Part shown: positions 2,923-35,090 of the stretch, piece after piece
How positions within the stretch are numbered: the first letter of the stretch is position 1
How the letters are laid out: each line of letters begins with the position of its first letter
From: Archaeoglobaceae archaeon
GTDB lineage: Archaea; Halobacteriota; Archaeoglobi; Archaeoglobales; Archaeoglobaceae
Direction: 5' to 3'
Assembly (NCBI GenBank): GCA_015520485.1
Contig: WAPX01000049.1
Span: 1 to 35,448 of the forward strand
DNA length: 35,448 nt
Notes under the pieces: generated by a model
What the model saw: the letters and a program-made list of their open reading frames with translations, nothing else
Told to the model about the DNA's origin: nothing
Databases searched by the model: none
Position numbers and translations under genes: made by a program

Positions 2923-4188
2923 TCAATACTTATAAGATTGTAAAGAATTATCATGATTGAACACCTCATCCAAAATGCTCTCTTTCATCTCCTCAAGCAG
3001 AGTTATCTGCTTCTGGATTTTCTCTTTTAAGGTTTTGATTTTCTCATAAACGCTGTCAAGGTAGTTTGCTATTTCTTTTTGCTTTTCAAGGTCTGGCTGG
3101 TTGTTGCGGAAGGGGATTAAAATTGGCAATTTTTTGACCATTTTTTGATTTATGTGTTTAAAGGTTGTTTGTCCTCTTAGCAATAATCTTTTAGCATTTT
3201 GTAGAAGGTAATAATATAGATATTTAAACAATATATCGTTCTTAGGTACTATTGCTGTGATTTGCTGATTTATAGCCAAGTCAATTCCTGCTATTGCTAC
3301 ATTACCCACCGAGGCTGTAGTTACTAATAAAATTGAATCTTTAGGAGCTATCCGTGCATTACTTTTCTTAAGTCCTTTTTCAGTTATGTACCGTGTAGGC
3401 TTAGTTATGTAAACATCATTATTGCTAAACTCTTTAGCACTTATCCAAGGAATGTTTCCATCCCAATATTCATCTACTGTGGTTTTTGGTGTTCCACCCA
3501 TAAAATGATCTGCAACATCCCCTAATCTAACCTCTTTCCACACCTCCCCCTCCTTCGGCTTAAACGCCTGCTCCAATACACTTTCCCACAGCTCATCGAG
3601 TTGCTCAAGCTCTTTCTTTTTCTTCTCCAGAATTTTGTCAATCCTTGAAAAGTTTGCCTCAATGTATTCAACGATTTTCTTTTGAGTTTCTAAATCTGGC
3701 TTGCCGTTGCGGAATGGGATGGGGATTTTAAATCTCTTTATTATGGTCCAAGACACTCTTGGAAGATGAACACCTTTCATCATGGAAGTTGCATAATTTA
3801 TAAAAATATTTGTATGTAAGAAAAACACAAGATAATATGGTAGTATCTTATCTCTTATTGGTTTTATTACTATGAAATCCGTAGAACATATACCTTCTTT
3901 ATCGGAAACAACAGCTTTATCTAAATATGGTCTAAGCTTGCCATACAATATATCATCTGGATAAAATTTGTATTTCATGCTCTTTACTTTATTGCTATAT
4001 TCCCATCTGTTTAGCTTAATTTCGCCAGAGTTAATATGTTCTAAACCAATATAAATCTGATTTTCACCAGCTGGGATTACATTTTCGCTTCTTCTCTGGC
4101 AAACTTCCCCCAACTTCACCTCTCTCCACTCAACCCCTTCAACTTCCCACGGCTTTTTTGTTTTTATATAATCATCAAGGGTTTTCAT
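2923..4188 (-). CDS. hsdS: Type I restriction-modification specificity subunit HsdS
   Basis: DNA-recognition subunit that directs HsdM methylation and HsdR cleavage. It has the classic two-half structure. Each half starts with a target-recognition domain (W(R/K)EV(K/R)LG(E/D)V motif) and ends with a conserved helical repeat. The two repeats read alike: IPFRNGKPDLETQKKIVEYI and IPFRNNQPDLEKQKEIANYL, each followed by a coiled coil. I set the start at the ATG at 4188 because GGAGGAG lies just upstream; an in-frame start at 4221 would add 11 residues and has no such site. It overlaps the preceding membrane-protein gene by 14 bp, so it is the last gene of the operon. The reading frame is intact (421 aa). 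Confidence 0.92.
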   Translation of the reverse strand: MKTLDDYIKTKKPWEVEGVEWREVKLGEVCQRRSENVIPAGENQIYIGLEHINSGEIKLNRWEYSNKVKSMKYKFYPDDILYGKLRPYLDKAVVSDKEGICSTDFIVIKPIRDKILPYYLVFFLHTNIFINYATSMMKGVHLPRVSWTIIKRFKIPIPFRNGKPDLETQKKIVEYIEANFSRIDKILEKKKKELEQLDELWESVLEQAFKPKEGEVWKEVRLGDVADHFMGGTPKTTVDEYWDGNIPWISAKEFSNNDVYITKPTRYITEKGLKKSNARIAPKDSILLVTTASVGNVAIAGIDLAINQQITAIVPKNDILFKYLYYYLLQNAKRLLLRGQTTFKHINQKMVKKLPILIPFRNNQPDLEKQKEIANYLDSVYEKIKTLKEKIQKQITLLEEMKESILDEVFNHDNSLQSYKY

Positions 4189-4675
4189 TTTGTATCTCCT
4201 CCGGTTTGTAGAAGTAAACATCTATCATTTTTTTGAGCAACCACAAACACCTGAATAAAGAAACCATTGCCCATATAAAAAGAATTATAAGCAAAAATAC
4301 AAGAAATGCAGGAACATAAGGCATCAAGATTTTAAAAACAAAGCTCAATATTGCTAAAATAACAAAAAGAGCTATTGAAACTGTAAACGCATGAAAAATA
4401 TATTTATACGTTTGATGTAATCTTATAAATTTAATTCGATTATTTTCTGGAAAAACAAAAAGAATAGTTAATGAAGTTATAAGGAATCCAGCTAAAGTTA
4501 TGCTGATTGTTAGTATAGTGCCAAGACTGTCAAGTATATTACAAAAGATAAAACTTAAATCAAAAAAATAGATAACAGCGACCAAGAGGGATCCTAATAT
4601 CAGGCTACCAATAAAATCGTTTTTGAGTTCTTTTATCTTAAAAGTGGTAATCATAATCTTACCATTAGTGTTCAT
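4175..4675 (-). CDS. Four-helix membrane protein, RexB-like
   Basis: A 166-aa polytopic membrane protein with four hydrophobic helices at about residues 20-45, 51-75, 91-117 and 121-146, and a short soluble tail. From memory it parallels lambda RexB (144 aa, four helices, ion channel) in order and spacing: DSLGTIL here against DGLGATL in RexB before helix 2, and a basic loop NRIKFIRLHQTY against RRLAKIREYGY between helices 2 and 3. It follows the RexA-like gene with an 11-bp overlap, as rexA precedes rexB in lambda, and it overlaps hsdS downstream. In a Rex-like system it would depolarise the membrane when the soluble partner is triggered. The start is uncertain: the ATG at 4675 sits immediately after GGAGG, and the next in-frame ATG is at 4654. 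A Kiwa KwaA-type protein is the main alternative. Confidence 0.6.
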   Translation of the reverse strand: MNTNGKIMITTFKIKELKNDFIGSLILGSLLVAVIYFFDLSFIFCNILDSLGTILTISITLAGFLITSLTILFVFPENNRIKFIRLHQTYKYIFHAFTVSIALFVILAILSFVFKILMPYVPAFLVFLLIILFIWAMVSLFRCLWLLKKMIDVYFYKPEEIQNENP

Positions 4676-5624
4676 CCTCCGCCGTAACAGGATTCATAAA
4701 TTTTTCAAGTTCATCTTTTAGTGCTGAATACGAGTCTATTATCTCTCGGTACATTGAATCTGGATTTACTGCTCTTGTTCTATCATCTAGCTTCGGAACT
4801 CTTTTTTCAGTTAACATAAGCTCTTCCAGAACATTAATAGACTCTATGGTATCACTACCTTCCAATTTTCCTCTTATTTCCAATACGTTAACGTTATTCT
4901 TGCTGTCTTCTCGTGAAAGAATTTTCTTAACTGATTTGAGTACTTTTTTAAATTTTGTAGGGTCGCCGTGTTTTCTTCCTTTGCCTAAGGTAAAAGATAG
5001 ATTAAGCCACATATTATCAACTAACTCTGCTGCTGAGAACATCTGCTCAAAGCTTTGGGGATCCTCTTGCTTTAACAATTTTGCATAATTTGTAGCAACA
5101 GAAATGCGAATGCCTTTTATCTCTATAAACTTTTCTATTAAGTCATAAACTTCCTTTTTTAGAATGGGCTTTATTTCTACCCTCTTTGTGCCTATTTGAG
5201 GATTATTTTTAAGATAATCATTAATTAGCCATGCTAATTTAGAATGCACCCACTTTACACCATAGTGGTTATATTCTGCGCCAATTATTTTACCGTCGAA
5301 TATTACAAAATGTGAAGGTTCAAATAATCCTTGATAGTCTTTCAGGTCAAGAGGAAAGACATTCTTTTTATTTATGTCAAATCCCAACGGTAAATCTGAT
5401 TTTCTAATTTTCGATATTCTGTATAACTGCCTTACGGAGTCTGATAAGGTTGTCTGTTGATAAGGCTCAAGATATAGTAATTCATCGCTATTTTGTTGAA
5501 TTAACTGTCCAGAAATATTAGATAATATACTTTGAATAAACCATGCATTTTTCTGCACTTTATCTCCATTATTTTTTACCCATATTATTTGATAAAAATG
5601 TATCTTTCTCAGTACTTCACTCAT
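4665..5624 (-). CDS. Soluble RexA-like abortive-infection protein
   Basis: A 319-aa protein with no predicted membrane segment, lying between hsdM and hsdS. Comparing from memory with lambda RexA (279 aa), I see the same sequence of landmarks. These are an aromatic N-terminal strand (IHFYQII), EPSHFVIFDGKIIG at 102-115 (RexA PSFLFVEGDTIG), KRVEIKPI at 147-154 (RexA ERVQIEPL), and a helical C-terminus of the form SMYxxxxxxYxxLKxELxKF (RexA MAYCYARMKSDILECF). RexA is described as a DNA-binding sensor that activates RexB. A Shine-Dalgarno-like GAGGTGG precedes the ATG at 5624. Together with the next gene this looks like an archaeal Rex-type module captured inside a restriction operon. The relationship is remote and not verified by a search; KwaB (DUF4868) is the alternative to exclude. 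Confidence 0.6.
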   Translation of the reverse strand: MSEVLRKIHFYQIIWVKNNGDKVQKNAWFIQSILSNISGQLIQQNSDELLYLEPYQQTTLSDSVRQLYRISKIRKSDLPLGFDINKKNVFPLDLKDYQGLFEPSHFVIFDGKIIGAEYNHYGVKWVHSKLAWLINDYLKNNPQIGTKRVEIKPILKKEVYDLIEKFIEIKGIRISVATNYAKLLKQEDPQSFEQMFSAAELVDNMWLNLSFTLGKGRKHGDPTKFKKVLKSVKKILSREDSKNNVNVLEIRGKLEGSDTIESINVLEELMLTEKRVPKLDDRTRAVNPDSMYREIIDSYSALKDELEKFMNPVTAEDEH

Positions 5625-5666
5625 TTATACCACCTCTGCTTTCATCCTAGCATCCCCCTTAATTCC

Positions 5667-7079
5667 TCAAGCAAACTCATAATCTCTCTTTCCCTCTCTC
5701 ATAATATCCTCTAAAATTTCTCCAGCAGGCCTATACTCCTTCTTCCTCAACTTATTTGGATTTCTCGGAGTTAATTCATAAGTTTCCTTATCAATTTCAT
5801 CAATTTTAACGATCCACGAGTTTTCGCTTATCTCTCTGTTCTGCCATTTCTCATAGCAGTCCTGCCAGTCCTCATCCCTCATGGGTCTTGTTTTTGTAAA
5901 ATTCTTCCTTCCTTCAGGTGGCTGGATTTCGTAATACCATATTTCCTCTGTTGGTCCAGTTTTGTCAAAAAACAGCAGATTTGTTTTAACAGGTGTTTTT
6001 CCGGAAGCGATAAAAACACCCTTAGGCAGGGAAACAATTGTATGAACATTGTAATTTTCAAGGAGTTCTTTTCTCACCTTAACAAAGGGTCCTGTTGTGT
6101 TGGATAATACACCTTCGGGAACAACTATTCCAGCTCTTCCACCCTGCTTTATCTTTCTCATAACATATTGCAGAGCCATTAACTCTGTGTCAGAGCTTTT
6201 AACAGGGAAATTAGACTTAAACCGTTCATCAAATTTTCCACCAAATGGCGGATTGGTGAGGATTATATCAACTCTATCCTTCTCCTGAATCTTTCTCACA
6301 TCCTCCGCAAAGGTATCAACCTTGTAAATGTGGGATGTAGGGAGATTATGCAAAAGAAGGTTCATAATACCAATAAGATAAGGTACATCTTTCTTTTCCT
6401 GTCCATAAAACATGTTATGCAAGATTTTCGTTTCTTTCGTTGTGAAAACTTCCTTACTCCTCAAAATATGATTGTAGCTTTCAATCAGGAATCCAGCAGA
6501 ACCTAAGAAAGGATCCAAAATTATTTCACCAAGTTTCGGATTTACAATCTTCACCATCAGCCTGATAACCGGCCTTGGAGTGTAATACTCGCCAGCATAC
6601 TTACCCATTTCCCCAATTTCTGGCAAAAGCTCTTCATAAAGTGTTGAAATAACATAAATGTCTTCTTGGGTTCTAAATCTCAGCTCATCAAGGAGCAAAG
6701 CCACCTCTCTTAGCTTATAGCCATCTCTTAGAAAGTTCTGTATTTCTTTTCCGCTAAAGATAGTGGCAATTAACTCCTTTTCACCATCCCCATTCAATTT
6801 GGAGAGAAAAGGAAATAGTTTGTTATTAACAAAATCGATTAACTCCTCACTTCTCCAGTCTTTGTGAACCCAGTCTTTCCATCTGTAAGGAGAGGGAATG
6901 TTTCTTTGGTAAGTTTCTCCTTTTAATTTCGCCTTTAACTTCCTCTCATCCTCAAGATCATCATAAAGTTTCAAGAAGAGCATCCACGATAGCTGAATTA
7001 TATAATTCACAGAAGCAATCTCATTTCTTAACAAATCGCAAGCCTGCTTGAACTTTGATTTTAATGTCTGTCTATCCAT
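5667..7079 (-). CDS. hsdM: Type I DNA adenine methyltransferase HsdM (3' end frameshifted)
   Basis: Transfers methyl groups from SAM to adenine N6 at the sites chosen by HsdS. An N-terminal HsdM_N helical domain is followed by GEYYTPRPV at 163-171, the SAM-binding motif DPFLGSAGF at 189-197 and the catalytic NPPF at 276-279. The ATG shares one base with the hsdR stop (TAATG), indicating translational coupling. The annotated frame ends REGKRDYEFA, which is not a normal HsdM end. Dropping one G from the GGG at 5692-5694 gives REEREIMSLLEELRGMLG and a stop at 5642. That is a typical HsdM C-terminus, and it leaves about 17 bp before the next gene instead of 42. The catalytic part is intact, so activity may survive either way. 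Confidence 0.92.
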   Translation of the reverse strand: MDRQTLKSKFKQACDLLRNEIASVNYIIQLSWMLFLKLYDDLEDERKLKAKLKGETYQRNIPSPYRWKDWVHKDWRSEELIDFVNNKLFPFLSKLNGDGEKELIATIFSGKEIQNFLRDGYKLREVALLLDELRFRTQEDIYVISTLYEELLPEIGEMGKYAGEYYTPRPVIRLMVKIVNPKLGEIILDPFLGSAGFLIESYNHILRSKEVFTTKETKILHNMFYGQEKKDVPYLIGIMNLLLHNLPTSHIYKVDTFAEDVRKIQEKDRVDIILTNPPFGGKFDERFKSNFPVKSSDTELMALQYVMRKIKQGGRAGIVVPEGVLSNTTGPFVKVRKELLENYNVHTIVSLPKGVFIASGKTPVKTNLLFFDKTGPTEEIWYYEIQPPEGRKNFTKTRPMRDEDWQDCYEKWQNREISENSWIVKIDEIDKETYELTPRNPNKLRKKEYRPAGEILEDIMREGKRDYEFA

Positions 7080-9601
7080 TATCTAGCACCTCCTGCCTCG
7101 TATAAACCTTGAGATATGCTTTCAAGTGCATGCATGAGATTCTCTATTCCACCAAAGGAATCTATAATCTCTTTTAGTTTTCCTATCTTTTGAATATCCG
7201 GGGATTCCAGAGCTTCAGGAGAGACTTCATCAATGCCGCCAATCTTATATTTCTCTATTAGGTTAAGCAAAACTTCTTTTGCTGTTTTGTTGAAAGAGTT
7301 AATGAACTGCTGTTTTTCATTTAACAGAGCTTGAGCCCTATCATCCCTACTCAATACAGGGGCATCAAAAGCTACATGGGCTATAACATCAAAAGCATCC
7401 GCATCAGGTCTGTCCAGCAATTGAGCTATTAACTCTGGATTTATGCTCTTCGCTTTCAAATCTTCTAAAAATTTCTTCCTGCTCTCTCTATTTATCCAGA
7501 TTTTTCTCAGATCATCTAGTGTAAGTACTTTCTTTCTCACGTTTTCTTTAGCGTATTCAATGTATTTCGCCTTGTTGAGCCTTTTACCCTCCACTTCAAC
7601 ATATATCTCTTCTTCAATGTAAACGTTAACGCCTTTAACAACTATTTTTCCCTCTTTTGGTTTTTTCTTTTTCAATTCAATTACAACAGCAATTTTATCT
7701 TTAAACGGGATTGGATCTACACTCACTTCTCTTGTCTTATAATTTTTAGCTTCAACTTTTACTTTTACAGGAGAATGAGGGCAACCATCTATGATGAATT
7801 CCCCATTTCCATCCGTTCTCGCTGGTTTAATCATGTTAACTCCTAATTTTGCTGTTACCCTTGCATTAACGATAGGAGTTCCTTCTTCGCTGTCAACAAC
7901 TCTACCTTTTATAAAGTAATCGAAAGGACCTTCCGGGATGTCTGGTATATACCCTTCAGGTGGCATATCCCAAGGATCTAAGAGGCGAGTGGCATTCACG
8001 AAGTCTATAATTCTAAAATAGAATTTGTCTGCATCTTCACATATTCTACTTCCTCTCCCCAAGATTTGTTTAAATAAAACCTTGGAAGCTATAGGTTTCA
8101 TGAAAACTATGTTTTTTACAGGAGGAATATCAACACCTGTACTCAGTAAATCTACAGTTACAGCAATAATGGGTGTCTGATATTCAGAATCCGCCATCTT
8201 TTCGGCAAGTTCTATTGCGTTTGGTTCTTCATCAACAATTCTAACAACAAACTCATCTGCATTTACACCAGTTGAGGCTATTTCATAAGCCAACTCGTTC
8301 TGTAAGATCTTTACAACATCAAGAGCATGTTCTTTAGTTACACAGAAAACTATGGTTTTTTCCGTTGGACCATAAATTTTTAATATTTCAGCAAGTTTCT
8401 TTGTCATAACTTCTGTTCTGTCTGGTAAAGTTATTATTCTTTCAAATTCACCAACAGAATAGAATTCCTTAATTTCTGTTTCTTCAGGAGCCTCAATAAT
8501 GGCTCCTTCACTAGCCACATCAGTAAGGGAAATTCCACCCCTCTTGTCGATATTCATGTAAATCTTGTGGATTTTGTAAGGAGCGAGAAAGCCGTCTTCT
8601 ATACCCTGTCCCAAACTGTAAACATAAACAGGAGTGCCGAAATAGGCATAAGTATCTATGTTATCATCCCTTTTTGGTGTTGCGGTCATACCGAAATGAA
8701 CAGCATCTTTAAAATAATCAAGGATTTCTTTCCATCTCCCGTAACCTGATCTATGACACTCATCAATAATTATCATGTCAAAAAAATCTGGAGGATATTC
8801 CTGATAAAGTCTATTTCCGTTCTTCTCTGAGTAGAGAGTTTGATACGTAGCAAAATAGATATCTCTTATTTTGGGAGCCTTACCCTCTTTAATTATTTCT
8901 CTCGCACCACCAAACGGTTCAAAGAATTTATTACAGGCCTGATCCCTTAGCATTACTCTATCAGCGAGATAAAGAATTCTTCGAATTTTCTTTGTATGGT
9001 AAAATTTCCATGCCACTTGAAAAGCAACATAAGTCTTACCCGTTCCGGTAGCCATAGCAAGTAGAATACGCTTTTTTCCATTTAGAAAAGCCTCTATAAT
9101 ATTTTTCACTGCTGCAATCTGATAGTATCTTGGAATTTTGTTCTGGACTATTTTATAGGGATACAAGAGCGGGTTCTCTTCTTTGTTGAAAGGCAAGACT
9201 CTATTAAACTTCCATAATGAATATCTTTTCCACAATTCCTGTGGTGATGGAAAATTATCAAGAGTTCTTTGCTTCTTTGTTATGAAATCGTATTCTTCTA
9301 TTTTGTGTCCATTTGTTGAATAAGCAAAGGGGACATTAAGCATTTCAGCATATCTTTTTGCTTGTTGCATTCCTGCAGCATAATGTTTTGACTCTTCTTT
9401 TGCCTCTACAATGGCTATTGGAAAATATCTCTCTAAAAATAGAATGTAATCAGGTTTCAACCCCTCTTTTCTGTTTCCGTATTCATCTACTATTCTACCT
9501 TCTGTTATTTTCAATTCGCGTTGAATCAAATCTTCTGACCAACCAGATTCATGTAATTTCGGATCTATTAGCTTAGCTCTAGTTTCTGCTTCGTTTAGCA
9601 T
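7079..9601 (-). CDS. hsdR: Type I restriction endonuclease HsdR with an inserted beta-sandwich-like domain
   Basis: Motor and nuclease subunit of the type I complex, 840 aa, closest in layout to the EcoAI/EcoEI type. The N-terminal PD-(D/E)xK nuclease shows PDY (D51) and VEAK (E66, K68). The SF2 helicase has Walker A ATGTGKT (184-190), DECH (280-283), TATPK, STGVDIP and QILGRGSRI. The C-terminal region matches the EcoEI_R_C type. Between helicase and C-terminal domain, residues about 564-644 read like a carboxypeptidase-regulatory beta-sandwich (IKGRVVDSEEGTPIVNARV, TDGNGEF, VKVEAKNY), which is unusual here. I chose the ATG at 9601 because AGGTGA lies 5 nt upstream; a GTG at 9610 has no such site. 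First gene of the hsdR-hsdM-RexAB-like-hsdS operon. Confidence 0.94.
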   Translation of the reverse strand: MLNEAETRAKLIDPKLHESGWSEDLIQRELKITEGRIVDEYGNRKEGLKPDYILFLERYFPIAIVEAKEESKHYAAGMQQAKRYAEMLNVPFAYSTNGHKIEEYDFITKKQRTLDNFPSPQELWKRYSLWKFNRVLPFNKEENPLLYPYKIVQNKIPRYYQIAAVKNIIEAFLNGKKRILLAMATGTGKTYVAFQVAWKFYHTKKIRRILYLADRVMLRDQACNKFFEPFGGAREIIKEGKAPKIRDIYFATYQTLYSEKNGNRLYQEYPPDFFDMIIIDECHRSGYGRWKEILDYFKDAVHFGMTATPKRDDNIDTYAYFGTPVYVYSLGQGIEDGFLAPYKIHKIYMNIDKRGGISLTDVASEGAIIEAPEETEIKEFYSVGEFERIITLPDRTEVMTKKLAEILKIYGPTEKTIVFCVTKEHALDVVKILQNELAYEIASTGVNADEFVVRIVDEEPNAIELAEKMADSEYQTPIIAVTVDLLSTGVDIPPVKNIVFMKPIASKVLFKQILGRGSRICEDADKFYFRIIDFVNATRLLDPWDMPPEGYIPDIPEGPFDYFIKGRVVDSEEGTPIVNARVTAKLGVNMIKPARTDGNGEFIIDGCPHSPVKVKVEAKNYKTREVSVDPIPFKDKIAVVIELKKKKPKEGKIVVKGVNVYIEEEIYVEVEGKRLNKAKYIEYAKENVRKKVLTLDDLRKIWINRESRKKFLEDLKAKSINPELIAQLLDRPDADAFDVIAHVAFDAPVLSRDDRAQALLNEKQQFINSFNKTAKEVLLNLIEKYKIGGIDEVSPEALESPDIQKIGKLKEIIDSFGGIENLMHALESISQGLYEAGGAR

Positions 9602-9678
9602 GGATTTCACCTAATTTCATTAATTATTTCCGTGTCTCAATTTTTTACAGCCGCCGAGCCGAATTTCTGCTAACTCAG

Positions 9679-9762
9679 TATACGAACTTCGCATTTTGTC
9701 CCAATATGAAAGGATATACGAACTTCACATTATCTCCAAATTTAGAAATATATACGAACTTT
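9679..9762. repeat. Three TATACGAACTT repeats at 36-bp period
   Basis: Identical cores start at 9679, 9715 and 9751, exactly 36 bp apart. The first two extend to TATACGAACTTC followed by similar text (GCATTTTGTCCCAA versus ACATTATCTCCAAA). They fill the space between the integrase remnant and hsdR. Arm-type integrase binding sites, a dead attachment site or binding sites for a regulator of the hsd operon are all possible. Confidence 0.75.
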
Positions 9763-10719
9763 TCAACCATCCCCTTTATTATCTCCAATCAAATCTAATG
9801 GGCTTCTAATTCTCCTTAAATCTTCCATCGCAACATGAGTATAAATCTCTGTCGTTTTTGAGCTTTTATGCCCTAACAACTCCTGAATGTACCTCAGATC
9901 AATTCCACTTTCAAGCAGATGGGTGGCAAATGAATGCTTCAGAGAATGGACTGCAGCATCCTTTTCAATGCCAGCTTTATCCCTTGCTTTTTCAAAGATT
10001 GCCTGAACAGTTCTGGTTGAAGTATACTTATCCTTCCTCTGCCCCGGAAACAACCATTTTTTTCCTGCCCTTTCCACCTCTTATTCTGATTAACCGCCTT
10101 TCAACATCCTCAACTCTAAGCTTAACAACCTCTCCAACCTTCAATCCGGCAGAATACATGAACATCAGAATTAGCCTGTGCGTGAGATTTGTAACGGAAG
10201 ATAAAATCCTTGAAATCTCTTCTTGGCTTAAGACAACGGGCAGCTTTCTATCTTTTTCGGCCTCTTTATTTCATAAACAAATCTCCGCTTTAAAATCTCA
10301 CCATAGTAAAATTTCAACGCATTTATTGCTATGTTCAGAGTTGATGCCGAACAGTTCTTCCTTTCTGCCAGATAATACAGGTAATCTACCACGTCATCAT
10401 TTGACACCTGATAAGGTGTTTTATTCCAGAATTTCAAAAACTCTTCATTGTGGTGCAGATAAAGCTTTACTGTCCTCCTGCTGTACTTTCTTGCTATGAG
10501 TTCTTTTCCCAGCTCATAAAGCCACACCGATAGATCAACTTTAACTTTCTCACCGTCAAATGCTGACAAAAGATTCTTCAATTCCGAGTAAGGAACGCTC
10601 CAGTATTTTTCATTGGGATGCCATCTGTAGCCTTTAATACTCTTAATTTTGGCAATGTAATCAGGGTTGTACGGGAATTTGACTATGACAGCATCTTTGC
10701 CGCTTTCAATCTTTATCAT
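9763..10719 (-). pseudogene. Decayed tyrosine recombinase/integrase (XerC/D-like)
   Basis: Three reading-frame pieces of one integrase. The first (10228-10719) has an N-terminal module with GYRWHPNEKYWSVP, then a SAM-like core-binding domain (SVWLYELGKELIARKYSRRT). Its frame breaks at the T5 run 10253-10257; one extra base would continue it as KRPKKDRKLPVVLSQEEISR and on to the box I region MFMYSAGLKVGEVVKLRVEDV. A second break near 10055-10075 joins RGGKGRK directly to KKWLFPG. About 25 residues that normally separate these motifs are missing, so this is a deletion. The last piece has [26 protein letters not shown] and the Tyr. The usual HxLR arginine is Lys here. It lay directly behind the PRiA4_ORF3 gene, 9 bp apart, as one transcription unit. 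Confidence 0.9.
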
Positions 10720-12860: not shown

Positions 12861-14285
12861 ATGGAAATAATTTTAACTGCTCCGGCAACGGAAATGAGCG
12901 ATCATAACGGAAAAGAATTCTTAGGCTTTGCAACGTGCACTCCCCCATCTGTCGTCCCTGTTCCGTTTTTAAAACGCTTTTTCTACCCGAAAGTTAAAAT
13001 AAACAGAGATGGAAGTGTTAAGTACGCTCCCTACGGTCTTAGGAAGATTGAAGCGATTCTGAAAGATAGCTTCGAGGTAATAGCAGTTCACCCCGATGAT
13101 ATAGAGGATTTCATCTCCGATGCAAAAGTTGTCGGCATATCAGCTATGGATCCTTTGGGCTACGGTCCTGTAAGCACGACATTTACAACGTTTCTCGGCG
13201 GAGAAGCTATGACAAGGATCGAATTTCTCAAACTATTAGACGTCGTAAGGGAATACGATTGTAAAATCGTTGTCGGAGGGGCTGGAGCTTGGCAACTGTT
13301 ACGCGAAAACTTAGACGTTGATTGCATCGTCATAGGAGAGGCTGAGAAAGTTGTAAAAAACATCTTTGAAAAACTAATCAGAAACGAAGATGTTCCGAAA
13401 GTGGTGTATGCTGAGAAACCGGATATTAAGGATATAAGGGCAATTACCGGAGCATCGATAAACGGGCTTGTCGAGGTTTCGAGAGGTTGTTCGAGACACT
13501 GTAGATTCTGCACAACTGCTGGAAGAAAAATAGATTTCCCAATAGAAAGAATTCTGGAGGAGGTTAAGTTAAACATAAAAGAGGGGACAAATGGTGTTTT
13601 GCTTCACGCTGAGGACGTTCTGGTGTATGGATCAAGGCTTATTCCGTCTGAAAATGTCATAAAGCTATTCAGAGAAGTTTCAAAAGTTACAAAGAACGTT
13701 GGTGTAAGCCACGTTGCACTTGCGAGCGTCGCAGCAAAACCGGATTATGTCACTAAGATCATGGAAATCCTCGAATTAGACTTTCTCGGAGTTCAGACCG
13801 GTGTTGAAACGGGCAGCTCTGAATTGCTTAGGAAATACATGCCTTCAAAAGCATACCCATTCAAAATAGATGAGTGGGCAGATGTTGTCGAATACGCGTT
13901 CGGTGTGATGAAAGATAACAGTTGGGTTCCAGCGGCAACGCTAATGATAGGTCTTCCAGATGAGAGAGACGAAGATTTAATAGCAACAATTGAGCTGATC
14001 GAAAGACTAAAAGATTATCCTTCCCTATTAGCGCCTTTAATCTTCGTTCCCATGCTACAATCTGCAATGAAAGATTACGCAAGGAGGAACCTTGAACAAC
14101 TGCACTTCGAGATAATCGAGAGATGCATAAAACATAATTTGAAACACGTGGAATGGATCATGAGCAAGTACATGAGGGGATTGAAAGGTTTCGTCGTTAA
14201 GAGTTCCTATTACGGGCTTAAAAGATGGATAGAGAAGAGGTTAAGAGAGATAGATTGGAAGGAAGTAAAAAAGCTTAGTGGGTGA
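12861..14285 (+). CDS. Radical SAM enzyme with N-terminal B12-binding-like domain
   Basis: A 474-aa enzyme. The radical SAM motif is SRGCSRHCRFC, with cysteines 210, 214 and 217 for the 4Fe-4S cluster that cleaves SAM. Residues about 60-170 look like the Rossmann fold of a cobalamin-binding domain (VVGISAMDPLGYGP, KIVVGGAGAWQL, DCIVIGEAE). However, the usual DxHxxG motif is missing, so cobalamin, if bound, is base-off without the lower His. The N-terminus ILTAPATEMSD and KYAPYGLRKIEAIL look family-specific. The ATG at 12861 is preceded by GGGGTGA. The substrate is unknown. Archaeal members of this broad class act on lipids, tRNA or proteins; a lipid role is only a guess. Confidence 0.85.
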   Translation: MEIILTAPATEMSDHNGKEFLGFATCTPPSVVPVPFLKRFFYPKVKINRDGSVKYAPYGLRKIEAILKDSFEVIAVHPDDIEDFISDAKVVGISAMDPLGYGPVSTTFTTFLGGEAMTRIEFLKLLDVVREYDCKIVVGGAGAWQLLRENLDVDCIVIGEAEKVVKNIFEKLIRNEDVPKVVYAEKPDIKDIRAITGASINGLVEVSRGCSRHCRFCTTAGRKIDFPIERILEEVKLNIKEGTNGVLLHAEDVLVYGSRLIPSENVIKLFREVSKVTKNVGVSHVALASVAAKPDYVTKIMEILELDFLGVQTGVETGSSELLRKYMPSKAYPFKIDEWADVVEYAFGVMKDNSWVPAATLMIGLPDERDEDLIATIELIERLKDYPSLLAPLIFVPMLQSAMKDYARRNLEQLHFEIIERCIKHNLKHVEWIMSKYMRGLKGFVVKSSYYGLKRWIEKRLREIDWKEVKKLSG

Positions 14286-29884: not shown

Positions 29885-30370
29885 AGAAAATGCTGGAAGG
29901 TTAGAATTAAGAACTTACTGGTTTTTGTGAATGTCTGATTTAGCTGTTTTGAAAGTTTTATCCACTTTAGCAAACACGTAAAGAAGCTGAACCGTAAAGA
30001 TAACTGGTCACAGGAATTAATGAACACTGTTAAAATTTTTAATGCTGTCGGTGCGTGTTGCTTATTTAACGCTTTGAGGAGTGTATAAGTCTAATTCCTC
30101 AGCAAGATTTTCGTATGCAGCTTTACATCTGACGGAAAGCGAAGATCTTGTAGGGCTTGACTGAACACATGTTCGATGGGGCAACCTTTGACGGAAAGCG
30201 GGCTGTTATCTTCTGACCAAGTGCGACGAAAGAACGGCCAGTTCGTAAATCTGGTGAAAAGGAAAAAGTTTTGCAGGTAGCAGGAAAGCTGGAGTTTTAA
30301 GGTGTGCTGTTTTAGAGTTTGTTCGGACGTATCTAACAGAACAAAAGTATTAATGCAGAACGTTCGGTGA
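29885..30370. other. Long intergenic region, no gene recognised, one 12-bp repeat
   Basis: No convincing reading frame on either strand. TGACGGAAAGCG occurs twice (30130-30141 and 30189-30200), 59 bp apart. The last part (about 30335-30370) should contain the promoter for the small ORF and radical SAM gene; AAAAGTATTAAT near 30341-30352 is the best TATA candidate. Confidence 0.45.
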
Positions 30371-30376
30371 ATGCTC

Positions 30377-30463
30377 ATGGTTATTGCATACAGATTTGAA
30401 TGCAACTCCGAAAACGGTGGACTGACGCACTACGTAATGCAAAGCGAAGAATCACCATTTTAA
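30377..30463 (+). CDS. Small ORF, candidate radical-SAM-modified peptide precursor
   Basis: Encodes 28 residues, MVIAYRFECNSENGG then LTHYVMQSEESPF. The ATG at 30377 follows GGTGA by 6 nt; an earlier in-frame ATG at 30371 would add two residues. It ends 18 bp before the radical SAM/SPASM gene, on the same strand, with that gene's GAGGTGG between them. A single Cys, a GG and a T-H-Y triplet are the notable residues. I recall short peptides called CbpA that accompany SPASM enzymes called CbpB in methanogens and relatives and share a VIAYR/THY look, but this memory is not checked. If real, the peptide would be a RiPP precursor. Confidence 0.55.
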   Translation: MVIAYRFECNSENGGLTHYVMQSEESPF

Positions 30464-30481
30464 TTTTTTTGAGGTGGTTCA

Positions 30482-31729
30482 ATGGAAAAAATTAAATTCG
30501 AAGATTTTAACGTATTCATAGATCCGGATTCCGGTTTCTGGGCCATTGCCGATGCCGAGCTTCCAGATGAGGTTAGGAAATTCTGGTTAAAAAACAGAGA
30601 TAGTCTGGCTGCGGAAATGAAAAGGTACCGATTTGAAACTGATGTGAAAGTCGTTTACGTAAATCCCACCGACCGCTGCAACGCCTCCTGCCCGTACTGT
30701 TACATTCCCGGCAAAATAAAGAGCAGAGGCAGAGACATGAGCTACGAAGAACTGAGCGGTGTTTTAAACTGCTTAATGGATTCTGGCGTTGAGTGGGTAA
30801 TATTTCACGGAGCCGAGCCGTTACTCGTAAAGGATCTGATCTTCAAGGTTATTGAAGAATACGACGAGTTCAACTACGGAATCCAGACGAACGGACTTCT
30901 GCTCAATAGGGATGACATGGACTTTATAATGGACAGTGAAATCAACATAGGCATTTCTTTTGACTCTCCCAGAAAGGACGTAAACGATTTTCTGAGAGGA
31001 AAAGGGCATTACGATACCGCTGTAAGAGCTCTGGATTACATGCAGGGGTATAAAAATCTGAATGTCGTAACGACCATAACACGGTACAACTACAATCAGC
31101 TTGCCGATATGGTTGACTTTCTAGCGGGAAAGGTGGAAGTTGTTTTAATGAATCCCGTAAGAGGGACAAGTGAGGGTGGTAGAAAATTCAGAGCTCCACC
31201 AGTCGAAGCGGCTGGAGAGTTTATAAAGGCCGTCAGCAGGGCTATTGAACATACGAAGAATGGTGAAAGGATAGTAATCGGTGATTTTGCCAACATTCTC
31301 CTTGGAATCGTCGCTCCTACCTCCAGAGTTTTGCAGTGCGACATATCGCCCTGCGGTGGTGGAAGGAGGTTCTTTGCCGTAGCATCCGATGGAAACGTTT
31401 ATCCCTGCGGGGAGTTTATAGGAATGGAAGAGTTTTCCGTACCATTCGACGAAGTGGTAAAAAATGGCTGTAAAAACGCCTTCAAGTCCGTTAACAGCAG
31501 GGTTGTTGAAAAGATAGAAGAGTGCAGAACATGCGCTTACAGGCACATCTGCGGCTCCCCGTGTCCAGCGGAAGTGTACGCCGAAAAGGGCACGTTTTTT
31601 GAAAAGAGTCCGTACTGCGAATTCTACAGGGCGGTAATAGATTACGCCTTTAAAATAATAGCTGAAGGGATGGAGGACTTCGTTATAAGGAAGGATGCAA
31701 TGAAAGTCAAGTACAGTTTGGGGCTCTAA
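30482..31729 (+). CDS. Radical SAM/SPASM peptide-maturase-like enzyme
   Basis: A 415-aa enzyme with the radical SAM cluster motif CNASCPYC (C66, C70, C73). A C-terminal SPASM domain for auxiliary Fe-S clusters carries cysteines 286, 291, 309, 330, 348, 351, 357, 361 and 379, with SDGNVYPCGEF and CRTCAYRHICGSPCPAE as its landmarks. About 60 residues precede the barrel; such N-terminal extensions in RiPP maturases often help bind the leader peptide. Enzymes of this shape make thioether or C-C cross-links in ribosomal peptides or activate sulfatases; no sulfatase is nearby. The immediately upstream 28-residue ORF is the natural substrate candidate. GAGGTGG precedes the ATG. No transporter or protease gene follows. 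Confidence 0.88.
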   Translation: MEKIKFEDFNVFIDPDSGFWAIADAELPDEVRKFWLKNRDSLAAEMKRYRFETDVKVVYVNPTDRCNASCPYCYIPGKIKSRGRDMSYEELSGVLNCLMDSGVEWVIFHGAEPLLVKDLIFKVIEEYDEFNYGIQTNGLLLNRDDMDFIMDSEINIGISFDSPRKDVNDFLRGKGHYDTAVRALDYMQGYKNLNVVTTITRYNYNQLADMVDFLAGKVEVVLMNPVRGTSEGGRKFRAPPVEAAGEFIKAVSRAIEHTKNGERIVIGDFANILLGIVAPTSRVLQCDISPCGGGRRFFAVASDGNVYPCGEFIGMEEFSVPFDEVVKNGCKNAFKSVNSRVVEKIEECRTCAYRHICGSPCPAEVYAEKGTFFEKSPYCEFYRAVIDYAFKIIAEGMEDFVIRKDAMKVKYSLGL

Positions 31730-33884: not shown

Positions 33885-34145
33885 TTACTGTTGAACAGGC
33901 TCAACCTTCTTAGGTTTTACATGAATGTGGGCTATTACGTTGTGCTTAATCCCAATTAAATCGACGTGAGCGATGTTTTTCCTTCCTATTACCTTTGCAT
34001 TGGTCAAAATGTAATAATCTCCATCCTTTGCCGTGAAAATCCCATCATATATGATCCCATACTTACTTTGGATGATTACTCTCTTCCCTAACAGCAAATC
34101 CAAAAATCCTTTTTTCTTCCCTCTCTCCTTTTTTTCAGACTTCAT
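33885..34145 (-). CDS. LSm/Sm-like small protein
   Basis: An 86-aa basic protein. LLGKRVIIQSKYGIIYDGIF followed by TAKDGDYYILTNAKVI reads as the Sm1 strands: gk-V-v-lk-G-xx-y-x-G-x-l, then the D-xx-n/y-i-l-x-n-A segment. LIGIKHNVIAHIHV fits Sm2, where canonical proteins have (I/V)RG. The middle loop is short (GRKNIAHVD). So it looks like an Sm-fold protein with a diverged RNA-binding loop. GGGAGGG precedes the ATG at 34145 and the gene overlaps the rep 3' end by 11 bp, so the two are co-translated. Possible role: RNA-based control of replication, or a structural ring. Confidence 0.65.
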   Translation of the reverse strand: MKSEKKERGKKKGFLDLLLGKRVIIQSKYGIIYDGIFTAKDGDYYILTNAKVIGRKNIAHVDLIGIKHNVIAHIHVKPKKVEPVQQ

Positions 34146-35090
34146 AATTAAACCCTCCCGGCGGAGATTTTAATTTCTGTTCAAGTAAGTAGTCTAAAAT
34201 TGAAGCTATCTCAAATTCGTAAACGCTCATGTAAAACTCATAAAGCCCTAAAGATTCATGCTCCTCTCTTGGTAGCTGTAAATCTTTCGAGTTCGTCCAA
34301 AATCTGGTGTTTAAAGCCCAATGGAGAGCCATGTTAAGAAGGTCATAGTCGTCAAAGTTCTCAAGCTGGGAAGGGTCTTCAATTCCTGCATAATTTGTTG
34401 AAAAGTAAAAGTAAACATCTGGTAAAGCCTGTAATGAACTTCCACCGTCCGTTTCCATGCCCGTTTTATACCTCCTGTAATGTCGATATCTTTCGTCATA
34501 ATCCTTCGGCTTTCGCTTGAACCTCCACCGTCCTCTAACGATAATCAACGTTTTAACGTCCACAAACCCTAAACGCCAATGCTTTTGGGCTAATTCGTTT
34601 TCGTTCTTAATCCAACGGGTTCCAAAAACTATTATGTGGTAATGGGTTCGTCCATTCTTTTGGTATTCAATGAAACGGACATAAAGGTAAACCTTCCCCG
34701 TTTTGCCGTATTTTCTGGTTCTTTGCTTTAAAAACTTCTTTAACCATGTCATGAATCGGTTAAATTCTTCTTGCGCTAAATAACGGGCTTCCCAAATGTT
34801 ACTTATGATGGGTCAATGGTCAATGTTATCATTACTGCCCAGCGGTAGCGTTTAGCCGTTTCCTTCCAGAAGTGGCGGTATTGTCGCTTATACCTCTTAG
34901 CCTTCCGCTTGCTCGTGAATCTAACTTCATAGTCATCTCTGAACTTCTTTTTAAGTATTAATATGATTCGCCGTTTTCGGACGTCAACGATGTATTCCTT
35001 GAATAGGTCAATAAGCTCCTTCTTTTGCTCGTCATTTAGCTCCTTGTCTTGATTAGGATTTGTAGAGCCTTCAGCTTCGTGCTTACGCAA
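34135..35090 (-). pseudogene. HUH-type rolling-circle replication initiator, split by a frameshift
   Basis: Two adjacent frames make one Rep protein. The first (34803-35090) is a basic domain ending RWAVMITLTIDPS, which carries HUH motif 1 (TLTxDP). The second (34135-34752) starts downstream but is open further back in frame as ISNIWEARYLAQEEFNRF, then MTWLKKFLKQ, YLYVRFIEYQKNGRTHYHII and VFGTRW. THYHIIVFG is the HUH motif 2 metal-binding pair. Adding one base at about 34803-34815 joins them as TIDPIISNIWEARYL. I cannot assign the motif 3 tyrosine with confidence. The start (TTG at 35090) is uncertain. Programmed frameshifting or a sequencing error are alternatives to a dead gene. Confidence 0.75.

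Follow-up and report, generated by a model that had tools for sequence, protein, structure and literature searches.

SCIFF maturases and QhpD are known to produce S-Cbeta or S-Cgamma thioethers, and the product that MftC generates from MftA is a redox cofactor (PMC8326336). The SPASM motif found in such enzymes reads CX9-15GX4C-gap-CX2CX5CX3C-gap-C, and within the SPASM subfamily similarity is a poor basis for predicting function (PMC6231123). The class that concerns us here, CbpA/CbpB, was predicted earlier by NCBIfam (models TIGR04164 and TIGR04163). No biochemical report on CbpA/CbpB was found in the literature searched, and neither was any literature on Archaeoglobus fulgidus with SPASM. 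What is new here is the co-occurrence of the two genes, the invariant residues of the peptide, and the CobT context of some loci.

The locus lies in a 35,448-nucleotide stretch of archaeal DNA (referred to here as the window), and its features are listed in Table 1. The initial annotation had described a 28-residue ORF located 18 bp upstream of a radical SAM/SPASM enzyme, with a ribosome site for each, and the sequence bore this out: the spacing between the end of cbpA (stop codon TAA at 30461-30463) and the start of cbpB was exactly 18 bp, and both genes were preceded by candidate ribosome binding sites. A second in-frame ATG at position 30371 would yield a 30-aa form of CbpA. The 28-aa start appears more likely, because the GGTG sequence sits 7 nt upstream of ATG 30377. 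Judged by length alone, an ORF of 28 codons would be at chance level; the homologues and the codon bias described below speak for a real gene.

Table 1. Features of the cbpA-cbpB locus
Feature	Position	Strand	Basis
Source: Archaeoglobaceae archaeon, GCA_015520485.1, contig WAPX01000049.1	1-35,448	forward	
Candidate RBS of cbpA	30366..30369	+	GGTG, 7 nt before ATG 30377; read from sequence
cbpA, predicted 28-aa precursor peptide MVIAYRFECNSENGGLTHYVMQSEESPF	30377..30463	+	TIGR04164, conservation before CbpB, codon-position bias
Candidate RBS of cbpB	30471..30477	+	GAGGTGG, 4 nt before enzyme ATG; read from sequence
cbpB, predicted 415-aa radical SAM/SPASM peptide-modifying enzyme	30482..31729	+	TIGR04163, PF04055

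NCBIfam equivalog models with curated cut-offs were used to assign the two proteins, and the CbpA/CbpB pair that the initial annotation had named was the right one. The enzyme scored 496 bits against the TIGR04163 cut-off of 375 (residues 5-400), and the peptide scored 35.1 bits against the TIGR04164 cut-off of 35, a margin of 0.1 bit that was reached by the 30-aa form only. In a six-frame search, CbpA scored 33.2 bits, slightly below the cut-off. The TIGR04164 model is narrow, because only 5 of the 55 Archaeoglobaceae genomes exceeded its curated cut-off and most family members scored lower. The window's pair also shared the gene order and adjacency of the CbpA/CbpB family. The cbpB product matched PF04055 in Pfam, and the Pfam SPASM model reached 18.3 bits, slightly below its cut-off of 21.5. 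The window's genome contained one CbpB above the cut-off, plus seven weaker radical SAM stretches, and the nearest named relative of its CbpB was found in an Archaeoglobaceae MAG (79% identity).

The next-best models on CbpB were those for the SCIFF maturase (107 bits), PapB (107 bits), HxsB (100 bits), QhpD (91 bits), and the sulfatase maturase (91 bits), all far under their respective cut-offs; the models for the cyclophane makers YhhB, WgkB, and AmcB also matched, at 64-73 bits. Three other identities were examined and rejected. A SCIFF maturase/ranthipeptide system was rejected based on the TIGR03974 score (cut-off, 425 bits; 340 bits in the case of PapB) and the presence of one Cys in the peptide instead of six. 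A mycofactocin system was rejected based on a TIGR03962 (MftC) score of 68 bits versus a cut-off of 265 and the lack of MftA-F-type neighbors. A sulfatase maturase was rejected because TIGR03942 fell well short of its 349-bit cut-off and none of the 40 intact peptides contained a CxPxR motif; hence, the enzyme did not group with the anaerobic sulfatase-maturing enzymes. Thus, the pair is a confirmed member of the predicted, apparently uncharacterized CbpA/CbpB family. At the gene level, it has one of the hallmarks of a RiPP system, namely a ribosomal precursor paired with a putative modifying enzyme.

The conservation of the pair was examined in 394 genomes of the phylum, of which 39 carried a CbpB above the cut-off and one more carried a CbpB slightly below it. 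The loci of the sampled genomes, together with three from named MAGs, made up 43 distinct loci (L048-L050 duplicate contigs that were already counted). Homologues of the 28-residue ORF were found where the initial annotation had suggested that they be sought, upstream of orthologues of the enzyme. Specifically, a CbpA-profile match was located directly upstream of cbpB in all 27 CbpB-containing Archaeoglobaceae genomes (E ≤ 0.0124), and there was no significant match in the 28 Archaeoglobaceae genomes that lack CbpB (none better than E = 0.15). An intact CbpA was encoded upstream of CbpB in 40 of the 43 distinct loci, at a distance of 2-91 bp (median, ~20 bp).

In the remaining three loci, cbpA was damaged; cbpB was intact in two of these. 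In genome G141, cbpA contained a one-base deletion; in G020, it contained an in-frame TAA; and in G118, both genes were frameshifted. Sequencing error is a possible source of the damage in all three copies. The G141 locus (L018, contig G141:C10), whose enzyme is the nearest relative found for CbpB of the window (79% identity), lies ~280 bases from a contig end. An internal ATG in its damaged cbpA would yield a Cys-less core, MHSENGGLTHYVMLDEKSPF, and the alternatives for this copy are decay, recent loss, or sequencing error. In the G020 locus (L045), the CbpA reading frame runs to GGLTHFV, is interrupted by the in-frame TAA, and continues with KEENFPF; its enzyme is intact and among the lowest scoring.

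The intact peptides followed the pattern [YF]-x-[LFY]-E/K-C-x(3-5)-[GA]-G-L-[TS]-H-[YF]-x(5-10)-P/L-F-stop, which includes the single Cys, the GG, and the THY triplet that had been picked out in the initial annotation. Five residues were identical in 40 of 40 peptides: C, G, L, H, and the F at the C-terminus. The first four were required by the search pattern, whereas the F was not, and the only loci without the motif were the three with damaged copies. The exchanges observed were T/S, Y/F, and G/A, with Y-to-F in three intact peptides. The spacing between the Cys and the Thr varied by 2 residues, and the tail after TH[YF] was 8, 9, or 12 residues long and always ended in Phe.

At the DNA level, cbpA had diverged by 12%, 17%, and 57% at codon positions 1, 2, and 3, respectively, among the relatives without the seven family f7 genomes, and by 18, 17, and 57% when these were included. 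The invariant Leu was specified by all six Leu codons. Because position 3 had diverged far more than positions 1 and 2 and synonymous codons were used freely, selection acts on the CbpA peptide. Taken with the co-occurrence, this makes cbpA a genuine gene under constraint at the protein level and a partner of cbpB. The same findings bear on the idea that the short ORF serves cbpB as a translational leader or attenuator, the enzyme having another protein as its target. The ORF does lie close upstream of cbpB, as such a leader would, but the residue-level invariance with free codon choice and the wide spread of the gaps make this explanation very improbable.

Mean identity was higher for CbpA (60%, for the segment starting 4 residues before the Cys) than for CbpB (52%), in contrast to bacteriocin cores. 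No conserved neighbors of cbpA-cbpB were found in the Archaeoglobaceae, and no conserved peptidase or transporter was found beside the pair. The greater constancy of the precursor relative to the enzyme, together with the lack of an adjoining conserved peptidase or transporter, argues against matured CbpA being a variable secreted bacteriocin. With such strong conservation, CbpA seems to belong to the machinery of the cell itself rather than being an antibiotic. In broad terms, the pair resembled the mycofactocin MftA/MftC and PqqA/PqqE systems, which have a tiny invariant precursor, a SPASM enzyme, and a cofactor-like distribution; unlike these systems, cbpA and cbpB had no conserved RRE partner gene, peptidase, or dehydrogenase beside them.

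CbpB contained the full set of cluster cysteines that had been noted in the initial annotation, and these were near-invariant in 40 homologues. The SAM-cluster motif was CNASCPYC (C66, C70, and C73; CX3CX2C). The SPASM set was C291-x12-G304-x4-C309, C348-x2-C351-x5-C357-x3-C361, and C379, which conforms to the published motif (PMC6231123), plus C286. Foldseek placed CteB first and anSME structures next, and CteB was also the best PDB sequence match. Like the SCIFF/ranthipeptide maturases (ScfB/CteB and PapB), CbpB is a radical SAM enzyme with a two-cluster SPASM domain that is encoded beside a short Cys-containing peptide and has a broad conserved distribution; the nearly leaderless CbpA, with one Cys versus six, differs from their precursors. 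A further difference involved C286, an anSME-type fourth Aux I Cys, which aligned with the first member of the anSME Cys pair and with a non-Cys position in CteB, where Aux I is open. With eight Cys available, both auxiliary clusters of CbpB should be fully ligated, as in anSME; if so, the peptide Cys need not bind Aux I, unlike the situation in CteB.

The anSME-type C286 and the anSME structures among the best fold matches are what might be expected if CbpB oxidized the CbpA Cys itself, to formylglycine or a related product, and made no cross-link. This is improbable given the low score of the sulfatase maturase model and the absence of the CxPxR motif from the peptides. In addition, no sulfatase was found adjacent to cbpB, in agreement with the initial annotation.

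AlphaFold was run on CbpA fused to CbpB, with the two intervening stops read as Gly. In the model of the window's pair (pTM 0.84), CbpA residues 2-9 were placed as a strand (pLDDT ~80), which might reflect leader recognition through RRE-type beta-strand pairing. In the model of the JdFR-42 pair (pTM 0.81), CbpA had a pLDDT of 23-26 and the strand was absent. Because this hint of docking did not replicate, it was not relied upon.

Together, cbpA and cbpB would constitute a RiPP-type maturation unit of two genes, in which CbpA is likely to be the substrate of CbpB. We think it reasonably probable that CbpB oxidatively cross-links CbpA to give a non-variable intracellular peptide. In the proposed pathway, CbpA would be translated as a nearly leaderless peptide of 26-28 residues with a short N-terminal segment, [YF]xxEC, that probably serves in recognition. 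The [4Fe-4S] cluster held by C66, C70, and C73 would cleave SAM, one residue in the invariant GL(T/S)H(Y/F) block would lose a hydrogen, and the two fully ligated SPASM clusters would accept the electron. The sole invariant Cys would meanwhile close a thioether ring through its thiol; with Thr/Ser as the acceptor, the ring would span 7-9 residues.

By analogy, we give a thioether from the Cys into this block about an even chance; it is our best guess because thioethers are what SCIFF maturase, PapB, and QhpD make, and these are among the top-scoring characterized relatives. Several points count against the proposed pathway: the change in Cys-to-Thr spacing, the difference from CteB at C286, the three damaged cbpA loci, and the unreplicated docking. 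The sulfatase maturase and HxsB models also scored close to the thioether enzymes, in a subfamily where similarity does not readily reveal function (PMC6231123). Among possible acceptors, the T/S exchange speaks against the Thr gamma-carbon. The Tyr phenol was disfavored as the reacting group by the Y-to-F exchange.

In MftA, the target of MftC is the Val-Tyr pair at the C-terminus. CbpA likewise has an invariant aromatic C-terminus, and its Phe, retained despite the variable tail length, leaves room for a mycofactocin-like step. There is accordingly a smaller but appreciable chance that CbpB modifies CbpA without forming a thioether, for example by joining the His/Tyr block into a C-C cyclophane, or by an MftC-like oxidative decarboxylation at the C-terminal Phe, with the Cys serving in recognition or metal binding. 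The matches to the cyclophane makers fit such chemistry, but they score below SCIFF, PapB, and QhpD, and the single invariant Cys would be left unexplained. For the cross-linked product that we favor, a role as an intracellular cofactor or as a metal- or protein-binding peptide seems more likely than one as a secreted antibiotic, because the peptide is unchanged across the phylum and no dedicated peptidase or exporter adjoins the locus.

In two other families, f7 and f9, CobT was encoded 1-60 bp after cbpB in 7 of the 9 loci examined; in 8 of the 9, cbpA was preceded by a gene for a divergent ribbon-helix-helix (RHH) protein. The C-terminal part of the RHH protein resembled AIR synthase, below the Pfam cut-off only. 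Genes for a TrpD-like phosphoribosyltransferase and for a zinc dehydrogenase came next in some of these loci. The operon-like order cbpA-cbpB-cobT with a divergent RHH protein was seen in L056-L059, L077, L087, and L088, and we guess that the family name "cobopep" may come from this context. CobT (PF02277) had no match in the window's genome (99.96% complete) or in six further CbpB-containing genomes of the family, and it was present in 16 of the 28 Archaeoglobaceae genomes without CbpB. These distributions weakened the case for a general cobamide role. Because CobT is missing from those seven genomes, the cobamide link is not obligatory and the pair works without CobT.

The window contained several other features. 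Type I restriction-modification genes (HsdS, HsdM, and HsdR) and an adjacent tyrosine recombinase, whose sequence is divided between two ORFs (10228-10719 and 9763-10077), were located at 2923-10719. Residues 567-658 of the HsdR-like protein formed an inserted carboxypeptidase-regulatory-like domain. At 12861-14285 (+), the window encoded a radical SAM protein with a domain whose resemblance to B12-binding domains fell short of the Pfam cut-off; a similar gene was found two genes from cbpB in L077. Downstream of cbpB, at 34135-34752 (-), there was a gene for an ORF2/G2P-type replication-associated protein (PF23343), which suggests that a small mobile element is integrated there or lies adjacent. 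No plasmid DNA match was found.

CbpA/CbpB has apparently gone without a biochemical description, even though the precursor is more conserved than the enzyme across the phylum searched. The 28-residue CbpA can be synthesized, and this, together with the full SPASM cluster set and the five invariant residues, makes the action of CbpB on CbpA directly testable. The cobT operon provides a lead on function. It is a speculative idea, which we rate as rather unlikely, that matured CbpA is a new intracellular factor in Archaeoglobi and their relatives, either a peptide-derived cofactor or a metal binder. Under this idea, some lineages, with the operon-like cbpA-cbpB-cobT order and a divergent RHH regulator, would use it in cobamide/phosphoribosyl metabolism or regulate it together with that metabolism, and others would have recruited it independently of such metabolism. 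A study of the CbpB reaction would add the pair to the small number of archaeal radical SAM peptide systems that have been examined.
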